A stretch of 59,824 bases of DNA from contig CALLAT010000028.1 in NCBI GenBank assembly GCA_938002085.1, forward strand, positions 1-59,824, in the 5' to 3' direction. The stretch is from an uncultured Pseudanabaenaceae cyanobacterium. Its GTDB lineage: Bacteria; Cyanobacteriota; Cyanobacteriia; PCC-9006; JAAUQQ01. This document shows, in pieces, positions 26,529-28,648 of the stretch (within the stretch, counting starts at the first letter, position 1; every line of letters starts with the position of its first letter). The translations under genes and the position numbers were made by a program. The notes under the pieces are model-generated. The model was not told the DNA's origin. It made no database searches and worked only from the letters and a program-made list of their open reading frames with translations.

Positions 26529-26560
26529 GGGTGGCTCAACAGATGTTGAGCCACCCTTTT
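26529..26560 (+). terminator. Intrinsic terminator after the sensor-only gene
   Basis: A perfect 12-bp stem (GGGTGGCTCAAC and its complement) with loop AGAT is followed by four T residues. Confidence 0.85.
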
Positions 26561-26606: not shown

Positions 26607-27479
26607 TTAGGCCGCCATTAGTAGGCGCTCAGGTTCGGCGACCCGGCGGCCTACAGCTGTGGCAATAGGCTTGAGGCTTTCCACAAGATCCGCCATAGCT
26701 TCCAATGACAGCGTTTGCTGAGCATCGGAAATGGCTTGATCCGGGTTGGGGTGGCATTCGATGATTAGGCCATCTGCTCCGGCAGCGATCGCAGCGCGGC
26801 TCAAGCTGGCCACCAGCTCCCGCCGACCCGCCGCATGGCTCGGATCCACAATCACTGGCAAGTGAGTTAGCTGCTTGAGTGCCACAACCGCGCCAATATC
26901 TAAGACATTGCGGGTGTAGCTATCGAAGCTGCGAATGCCTCGCTCACAGAGCACAATATTGGAATTACCATGGCTGGCGATGTATTCCGCTGCCATAACG
27001 AATTCCTCAATCGTCGCGGCCAGGCCACGCTTCAACAGCACTGGCTTATTGACCTTGCCCAGCGCCTTAAGCAGGTCGAAGTTTTGCATATTGCGGCTGC
27101 CGACCTGGAGTATATCGGCATGGGCGCTGAGGGATTCAATTTGGTCAATGGCCATAACTTCGGTCACGAAGGGCAAGTGATGGCGCTGACTAACATTGAG
27201 AATGAGTGACAGGCCGTCTTGGCCCATGCCCTGGTAGTCATAGGGCGAGGTACGGGGTTTGTAGATACCGCCGCGTAGAGCTTGGATATGACCGTTGCCG
27301 CGATTGGGGCCGAGGTGATTGGCGATCGCTTCCAGCTGGGCAGCACTTTCTACAGCACAGGGACCTCCAGCGATGAAAATGTTTGTTCCGCCAATGGTGG
27401 CGTTGCCGACTTGGACAGTGGTTGTGGAGACATCTTGAAGTTTGGAGCTATTGCGGCCAACAAGGGGAGCGGGTTTCAT
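26607..27479 (-). CDS. aroF: 3-deoxy-7-phosphoheptulonate synthase (DAHP synthase, AroF/type I-beta), short form
   Basis: The 290-residue enzyme joins phosphoenolpyruvate and erythrose 4-phosphate in the first step of the shikimate pathway. Motifs are IAGGPCAVES, YKPRTSPYDYQG, QVGSRNMQNFDLL, KPVLLKRG, ILCERGIRSFD, VDPSHAAGRR and IIECHPNPDQA, all of the type I-beta barrel. Usual family members are about 340-360 residues with an N-terminal ferredoxin-like domain that carries feedback inhibition. Here only a short tail (MKPAPLVGRNSSKLQDV) precedes the barrel, so that domain is absent. Upstream is a leader peptide rich in aromatic residues with alternative hairpins and a terminator, implying attenuation control. 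It faces the glycosyltransferase gene at 27917. Confidence 0.93.
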   Translation of the reverse strand: MKPAPLVGRNSSKLQDVSTTTVQVGNATIGGTNIFIAGGPCAVESAAQLEAIANHLGPNRGNGHIQALRGGIYKPRTSPYDYQGMGQDGLSLILNVSQRHHLPFVTEVMAIDQIESLSAHADILQVGSRNMQNFDLLKALGKVNKPVLLKRGLAATIEEFVMAAEYIASHGNSNIVLCERGIRSFDSYTRNVLDIGAVVALKQLTHLPVIVDPSHAAGRRELVASLSRAAIAAGADGLIIECHPNPDQAISDAQQTLSLEAMADLVESLKPIATAVGRRVAEPERLLMAA

Positions 27480-27548: not shown

Positions 27549-27667
27549 AAAAAAACCGCAGCCCTTGGACTGCGGTTCACCGAGAAGTTTGTGACAGGCT
27601 AACTAGAGCCTCACTTCCGGTGAACCTCCATAAACCAAAAAAAGTTGTAGTGTTGGGTGCTAGTCAT
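27549..27667 (-). promoter_or_regulatory. Candidate transcription attenuator for aroF
   Basis: Reading leftward, the leader peptide frame (27667-27611) is followed by a long hairpin whose base is GGTTCACCG (27626-27618) pairing with CGGTGAACC (27582-27574), with a second paired block GTGAGGCT/AGCC..TCAC inside. An intrinsic terminator follows: AACCGCAG and CTGCGGTT around a short loop, then seven T (27555-27549). The AACC at 27577-27574 belongs to both structures, so they exclude one another. The 5' arm of the first hairpin lies inside the last leader codons. A ribosome stalled at the aromatic codons would leave it free and block the terminator; a ribosome reaching the stop would cover it and let the terminator form. 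aroF starts 70 bp further on. Confidence 0.8.
27611..27667 (-). CDS. Leader peptide of aroF (18 residues, aromatic-rich)
   Basis: The frame reads MTSTQHYNFFWFMEVHRK and then TGA. Five of 18 residues are aromatic: Tyr7, Phe9, Phe10, Trp11 and Phe12, the three end products of the pathway that aroF opens. The aromatic block ends six codons before the stop, and the stop region forms the 5' arm of the next hairpin, as in pheL and trpL leaders of proteobacteria. Only a weak ribosome site (AGG) precedes ATG 27667, along with a small hairpin GGGCG-TAATT-CGCCC. Its product should have no role beyond sensing charged tRNA supply. No experimental support is available. Confidence 0.78.
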   Translation of the reverse strand: MTSTQHYNFFWFMEVHRK

Positions 27668-27916
27668 TGGTGCCTGGGCGAATTACGCCCGAGAAATCTT
27701 GTGCAGCTTGGCCGCTTGTTGATGGCAGTCTAGCAAGTCTTTTTCATCTCTGCCACCCGCATTCTTGAAACCCTTGGGAGAAATACTCAGGCTTGGTAAG
27801 ACTGCAAATTCGGTGGAACCCGAGAAAAAGCCCCTGCAATTCTGGCAATTTAAGTCACAATAGTCCCGGCTCAAATCGGTTGCTTAACCCAGAGTCTGCT
27901 GCTGCCGGAGAGACTG

Positions 27917-28648
27917 ATGACTGCCCTGAGCAATCGCCCCGAAACGACTACAGTGTTGGGCCTGCCCATCCAACTGCTTCAAAGCTATCCCGACTGGCTG
28001 AGCGATCGCCTCAATGCAGGCGACAGTATCCATGTGGTGACGCTCAATGCGGAAATGGCGATCGCCGCCGAAAAGGACCCCATCCTGGCAGATGTCATCA
28101 ACAAAGCTGACCTCGTGATCCCCGATGGTGCGGGGGTTGTTCTCTACCTCAAGCTGCGAGGCAAGCCCGTCGAGCGCTGCCCTGGCATTGAGCTGTCCGA
28201 AGAAATGCTGCGCCGAGCGGGCTCCCAAGGCTGGCCCGTCTACTTCTACGGCGGCAAACCCGGTGTCGCCGATGCCGCAGCAGTGGAATGGCAGCGACGA
28301 GCCCCCGGCATTAATTTCACGGGAATCAGCGACGGCTACATCCAAGCGGAGGGCGAAGCGGAGCTACTCGCAAAGCTGGAGCAAGAGCAACCGAAGCTCA
28401 TCCTCGTTGGTCTAGGGGTTCCCCGTCAGGAGCAATGGATTCAACAGCATCGCCAAGTCTGTCCCAACGCAATTTGGATTGGCTGCGGCGGTAGCTTCGA
28501 CATTTGGTCGGGCAATAAAATTCGGGCTCCCAAGTTCTTCTGCGACAACAACTTGGAGTGGGTCTATCGCTTGTACCAGGAGCCCTGGCGTTGGAAGCGA
28601 ATGTTGGCGCTGCCGCTCTTTGCTTGGAAGGCCATTATTGGCCAGTAA
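27917..28648 (+). CDS. WecG/TagA/CpsF family glycosyltransferase
   Basis: The 243-residue cytosolic or membrane-associated enzyme adds a sugar (N-acetylmannosamine or its uronate in characterised members) to a polyprenyl-linked glycan intermediate. Family motifs are VTLNAEMAIAAEKDP, VIPDGAGVV with the likely catalytic Asp, YFYGGKPGVADAAA, LILVGLGVPRQEQWI and WIGCGGSFDIWSG. The C-terminus EWVYRLYQEPWRWKRML with its basic and aromatic residues fits the membrane-binding appendage. It is divergent from aroF and followed within 110 bp by the DUF2808 gene. The sugar donor cannot be told from sequence. Confidence 0.88.
   Translation: MTALSNRPETTTVLGLPIQLLQSYPDWLSDRLNAGDSIHVVTLNAEMAIAAEKDPILADVINKADLVIPDGAGVVLYLKLRGKPVERCPGIELSEEMLRRAGSQGWPVYFYGGKPGVADAAAVEWQRRAPGINFTGISDGYIQAEGEAELLAKLEQEQPKLILVGLGVPRQEQWIQQHRQVCPNAIWIGCGGSFDIWSGNKIRAPKFFCDNNLEWVYRLYQEPWRWKRMLALPLFAWKAIIGQ

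Follow-up and report, generated by a model that had tools for sequence, protein, structure and literature searches.

The DAHP synthase (DAHPS) gene of an uncultured Pseudanabaenaceae cyanobacterium lies behind what is very probably a ribosome-mediated transcription attenuator, one that sets expression of the enzyme by sensing the charging of tRNA-Phe, tRNA-Tyr, and tRNA-Trp together. The case is built on the anatomy of the leader RNA, its conservation and covariation among relatives, selection at the level of codons, a conserved promoter, and the specificity of the element for a single gene. The stretch of DNA analyzed is 59,824 nt long (contig CALLAT010000028.1, hereafter the window), and the features relevant to the element are as follows.

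27727..27756, minus strand: probable promoter, -35 GTGGCA (27756-27751), 18-nt spacer, -10 TAGACT (27732-27727) after TGC; its position matches that of the promoter in relatives
27667..27611, minus strand: leader peptide ORF MTSTQHYNFFWFMEVHRK, stop TGA; conserved in 155/163 orthologous upstream regions
27632..27649, minus strand: regulatory codons 7-12 (Tyr-Asn-Phe-Phe-Trp-Phe); aromatic-for-aromatic exchange across relatives
27614..27626, minus strand: antiterminator 5' arm GGTTCACCGGAAG, within leader codons 14-18; covariation with the 3' arm
27574..27587, minus strand: antiterminator 3' arm CTTCTCGGTGAACC; covariation
27554..27577, minus strand: intrinsic terminator stem-loop AACCGCAGTCC-AA-GGGCTGCGGTT, -16.6 kcal/mol; terminator scan and pairing across relatives
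27549..27555, minus strand: terminator U-tract, seven T, read from the sequence
26607..27479, minus strand: DAHP synthase, class I-beta, 290 aa, without an N-terminal regulatory or chorismate mutase domain (TIGR01361, NF006421, PF00793)
26529..26556, strand given as '.', scored on plus: terminator-like hairpin 3' of the DAHPS gene; terminator scan

An earlier note made from the letters of this DNA had described an 18-codon frame with five aromatic codons (Tyr7, Phe9, Phe10, Trp11, and Phe12), which is present as stated and lies 132 nt 5' of the DAHPS gene. It is the sole ATG-initiated ORF of 10-40 aa in the whole window with at least five aromatics in six codons; 40 Markov-resampled windows, generated from the window sequence only, held 0.075 such ORFs on average, and none of the 40 had one with a terminator behind it. 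The hairpin with a 9-bp base and its 5' arm in the last leader codons was likewise found. Its core is the pairing of GGTTCACCG (27626-27618) with CGGTGAACC (27582-27574), which is extended by GGAAG/CTTC around one bulge into a helix of 14 bp (-24.7 kcal/mol alone). The terminator (8-bp stem, seven T; 27577-27549) shares the bases AACC (27577-27574) with the 3' arm of this antiterminator, as the note had reported. Its assertion that the two structures cannot coexist holds for the four basal pairs AACC/GGTT by the U-tract and fails for the upper half of the terminator stem, which in folding can still form beside the antiterminator. The 172-nt leader RNA is more stable than its shuffles (z = -2.64).

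A structured 5' UTR able to form either a terminator or an antiterminator is also what would be expected if a riboswitch, T-box, or protein-bound leader sensed aromatics directly and the ORF were secondary. Rfam scans of the window and of the leaders of 17 relatives found no matching family and no T-box, unrelated weak hits aside, and the two helices are the only conserved structure, the interior of the antiterminator loop being unconserved; we regard direct sensing as scarcely credible. One relative's upstream region (L022:33-104) matches the Rfam Cyano-1 sRNA at 41.2 bits, just above the gathering score and far from the leader.

Conservation was assessed in 163 distinct upstream regions of the DAHPS orthologue, drawn from the class of the window and from named genomes (Cyanobacteriia plus Melainabacteria/Obscuribacterales). 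A first leader (leader 1), comprising an aromatic cluster followed by a V/A-H tail, is found in 155 of these, with a median length of 18 codons and an ATG start in 153/155. A second (leader 2), in which the cluster is followed by a tail that is mostly SG, PG, or similar before the stop, is present in at least 147 of the 163; this is a minimum, because in L045, L062, and L063 the rule overlooked a second aromatic frame or a relic of one. Both leaders occur in 142 regions. Leader 2 sits between leader 1 and the DAHPS gene (L005-L022, L031-L066, L111-L227; for example MLSFPSLFNTYFFWPRSSSG in L006), about 160 nt beyond leader 1, and comes with an antiterminator and a terminator of its own; the median spacing between the two stop codons is 161 nt. 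Phe, Tyr, and Trp are all represented in 149/155 first and 136/147 second leaders. Named carriers include Nostoc, Calothrix, Hydrococcus, Scytonematopsis, Iningainema, Laspinema, Drouetiella, Pegethrix, Symploca, and Leptolyngbya, and the Melainabacteria/Obscuribacterales likewise carry the element. Calothrix brevissima NIES-22 (L036) and Hydrococcus rivularis NIES-593 (L041) are among the strains in which both leaders occur. In Obscuribacterales, Tyr makes up almost the whole of the leader cluster (MSARRYYYYYPNEVHPQ; a second frame reads MLMTQSYYYYRRMLRGSPR), with leader 1 clusters of YYYYY, YYYYH, and FYYYY among L063, L064, and L065 and a second Tyr-rich frame in L063, a composition that suggests Tyr-specific sensing in this order. 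In one region (L209, genome G276) leader 1 ends early, with a stop after ...FYFWYP and with antiterminator and terminator kept, which could change the position at which the ribosome is released.

Alignment of these upstream regions bore out the expectation of the earlier note that aromatic codons would be kept while other residues vary and that compensatory changes would be seen in both stems. Leader 1 has a mean of 5.9 aromatics in its last 15 codons, and the in-frame aromatic fraction is 0.42 for leader 1 and 0.49 for leader 2, compared with 0.11-0.26 in the other frames and 0.04 in the DAHPS protein. Of 51 non-synonymous variants in the three best columns of the leader 1 cluster, 46 are still aromatic (counted as alignment cells, which are not independent events), against an expectation of about one in eight for a single random change of TTT. 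The cluster also contains synonymous variants, TTT/TTC and TAT/TAC. In the tail codons GTT-CAC, the third base is frozen (GTT in 71/72) and CAC changes only to CGC, matching the helix. Because aromatic exchange is free while the tail bases are frozen, the cluster is maintained for its codons and the tail for its RNA.

This pattern bears on the possibility that the leader peptide itself stalls the ribosome, in the manner of TnaC, with a free aromatic amino acid rather than codon starvation as the signal. A conserved, aromatic-rich leader with a semi-constant V-H tail would suit nascent-chain arrest. However, it is aromaticity and not residue identity that is kept, with Phe, Tyr, and Trp exchanged at each position, while register and length shift and the Obscuribacterales leaders are nearly pure Tyr (YYYYY). 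Residues fixed at fixed positions, as TnaC-type arrest requires, were not found in the leaders of relatives, and RNA pairing accounts for the constant tail, where the third bases are frozen and His-to-Arg follows the helix. Arrest by the nascent chain is therefore improbable, and the attenuator reading, in which the codons are what is read, is preferred.

Covariation was counted in cells of alignments of related sequences, which are not independent events. On this basis, 91.1% of cells are paired in the leader 1 antiterminator and 99.5% in its terminator, with double changes in 8/13 and 5/8 pairs, respectively (alignment A2, 72 sequences). The corresponding values for leader 2 are 93.3% and 91.0%, with three pairs in each helix changed on both sides (alignment A3, 60 sequences). 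All four helices stand above every one of the 500 shuffles on percent paired, double-change cells, and covariation score, and slid controls are all lower on percent paired and covariation score; certain tallies of pairs or of pair types, mainly in leader 2, are not above shuffles. Where A becomes G within the shared AACC, its terminator partner goes from T to C and the antiterminator accommodates the change as a G-U pair, the pattern predicted for a single segment used by both helices.

A sigma70-type promoter-like sequence (TTGAC, 17-19 nt, TANNNT, no more than 130 nt 5' of the leader 1 start; TTGAC-N-TGnTANNNT) is found in 145/153 regions, compared with 0.9 expected from shuffled sequences. 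TG precedes the -10 box in most regions, and the distance from the end of the -10 box to the leader 1 ATG has a median of 40 nt. The -35 box of the window is weak, and a consensus promoter scan of the window found none, so that its candidate is visible only by comparison. Given the conserved promoter upstream of the leader, transcription is unlikely to begin downstream of the leader frame. Shine-Dalgarno-like motifs are rare before both leaders (6/155 for leader 1, 23/147 for leader 2), which weighs against the attenuator, although cyanobacterial genes are often without such a motif.

Folding of the leader at different ribosome positions reproduced the proposed switch for leader 1. Across 149 loci, the median for the basal terminator pairs of leader 1 is 0.99 with a ribosome at the stop codon and 0.38 with one stalled in the cluster; in the window the same comparison gives 0.94 and 0.29, in agreement with the prediction that a stalled ribosome favors the antiterminator and a ribosome at the stop codon the terminator. 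The switch was measured on the basal pairs, since the upper stem persists and a whole-arm measure masked it. For leader 2, the basal pairs are at 1.00 (stop codon) and 0.94 (stalled) at equilibrium, and the antiterminator is the earlier to fold (median 0.75), at a stage when the 3' arm of the terminator is yet to be made. Since the equilibrium fold thus keeps the terminator in both states, control at leader 2 would need to be co-transcriptional, that is, kinetic.

We infer the co-transcriptional timing, the ribosome positions, the response to amino acids, and a multiplicative action of the tandem in the following mechanism. RNA polymerase would start about 50 nt 5' of the leader, and a ribosome would translate the leader. 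When aromatic aminoacyl-tRNAs are plentiful, the ribosome would reach the stop codon and cover the 5' arm, so that AACC would pair into the terminator and transcription would end before the gene. When any one of them is short, the ribosome would stall in the Tyr..Phe-Phe-Trp-Phe cluster, and the free 5' arm would pair with CGGTGAACC, stripping the four basal terminator pairs next to the U-tract and permitting read-through. Untranslated RNA would also be read through: the minimum-energy and centroid folds of the untranslated window leader both hold the antiterminator helix, and the default without translation should therefore be read-through. In most relatives, two units stand in series, and read-through would have to succeed at both.

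The 290-aa product of the regulated gene matches positions 74-336 of 338 in NF006421, the N-terminal stretch of the model being missing, and no FXD regulatory domain was found in the source genome, which has one further DAHPS-family gene, of a longer type, on a different contig. For the short isozyme, control may have moved from protein to RNA. The terminator-like hairpin 3' of the gene suggests a one-gene transcription unit. On the other side of the 437-bp intergenic region that contains the attenuator is a divergently transcribed gene for a WecG/TagA/CpsF-family glycosyltransferase (window 27917-28648, plus strand).

Covariance models R1 and R2 have matches in 145 and 119, respectively, of 390 genomes of the class, one copy each and tied to the DAHPS gene. 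Four R1 genomes fall outside the list of orthologue carriers: two are contig-edge cases (G108, with a DAHPS gene, and G127, where the match is cut off at the contig end) and two hold decayed relics. These leader 1 relics, L290 (G115:C48:73995-74134) and L291 (G121:C221:6178-6317), are in genomes with no intact orthologue by protein search, one being fused to a broken DAHPS fragment and one being without any DAHPS. No conserved aromatic or Trp leader was found upstream of trpE and the prephenate dehydratase gene (pheA) in 29 relatives, nor an aromatic leader upstream of other DAHPS isozymes of the source and related genomes (0/15), nor a conserved one at the paralogues of about 50% identity (L025-L030); class II DAHPS is absent from the 29 genomes. 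This specificity also bears on whether the ORF could be a gene for a functional small protein, with the hairpins as its ordinary terminator. The frame is strongly selected and has its own promoter, as a small gene would, but in both units the antiterminator shows covariation and an overlap with the terminator, the element is found only at DAHPS, and the peptide is not kept outside the aromatic cluster and the RNA-constrained tail. A small protein is thus a highly improbable explanation, and attenuation at DAHPS remains the reading that we adopt.

In the DAHPS tree, the family of the window, in which leader 1 stands alone, branches from within tandem lineages, and in its sister row (L034) leader 2 stands alone. 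As judged from this nesting, single units arose by loss, the ancestral state is a tandem attenuator, and the family of the window has lost its second unit. The single attenuator proposed in the earlier note is therefore real in the window, although it is only half of an ancestral tandem. Since the Melainabacteria-side rows have leader 1 too, the element either predates the Cyanobacteriia radiation or travelled with the gene, the deep branches of the tree being weakly supported. We would give even chances to a broader proposal: an ancient, vertically inherited RNA family of two serial leader-peptide attenuators, each reading all three aromatic tRNAs, was present in the ancestor that Cyanobacteriia share with Obscuribacterales, forming a multiplicative gate on one DAHPS isozyme without an allosteric domain, with read-through by default when untranslated and with codon exchange retuning what is sensed (almost Tyr only in Obscuribacterales). 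In the Acidobacteria, L074 and L076 (Bryobacter sp. and an offshore isolate) have leaders MATAHPYRFWYWYFATRERV... and MAPRHSYRFWYWYFAPRERV... about 120-200 nt 5' of DAHPS. Behind these leaders stands a strong terminator, and its 5' arm is able to pair with the tail of the leader; this is apparently a separate aromatic attenuator.

In trpL, a protector hairpin favors termination when the leader is untranslated. By contrast, the untranslated cyanobacterial leader folds into the antiterminator, and a segment 1:2 hairpin of the trpL type favoring termination is absent from the minimum-energy and centroid folds of the window leader. Comparison with pheL and trpL, drawn in the earlier note, thus holds for the leader-dependent choice between terminator and antiterminator and breaks down at the protector hairpin and the predicted default of read-through. 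The ilvL-ilvGMEDA attenuator of enterobacteria is multivalent for branched-chain residues and is a single unit; the cyanobacterial element resembles it in that one leader holds codons for several end products of a branched pathway, and differs in that these are aromatic. In Escherichia coli pheL-pheA, pheM-pheST, and trpL-trp, leader translation likewise decides between terminator and antiterminator, for one amino acid each (PMC11802643). The closest known system comes from Corynebacterium glutamicum: aroR/aroF (Neshat et al. 2014), with an aromatic leader peptide (cluster Phe-Tyr-Phe) and attenuator 5' of a DAHP synthase gene and read-through on amino acid limitation, which for the cyanobacteria we infer; it is reported to respond to Phe and not Tyr limitation (PMC11802643; PMC4046766). 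As compared by the descriptions in these papers, the cyanobacterial leader adds Trp, usually comes as two units, and is conserved across cyanobacteria, whereas aroR/aroF is actinobacterial and no tandem is reported for it.

Reliable data on such attenuation in cyanobacteria were lacking in 2016 (PMC4833913). The earlier note knew of no described cyanobacterial case, and we found none in the open-access literature; outside the cyanobacteria, an attenuator at a DAHP synthase gene is known in aroR/aroF (PMC11802643). This is apparently the first well-supported ribosome-mediated attenuator in cyanobacteria. What is new relative to classical attenuation is that the units are usually tandem, that all three aromatics are read, that the predicted default is read-through, and that the phylum had no documented cases.

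A deeply conserved, covarying case makes the closeness of cyanobacterial transcription-translation coupling testable for ribosome-mediated attenuation. The element would control the first step into aromatic synthesis in phototrophs that serve bioproduction, in which deletion of the leader would be a simple route to higher flux. The tandem, with single units lost in sister lineages, offers a natural experiment on the reasons for retaining two attenuators.
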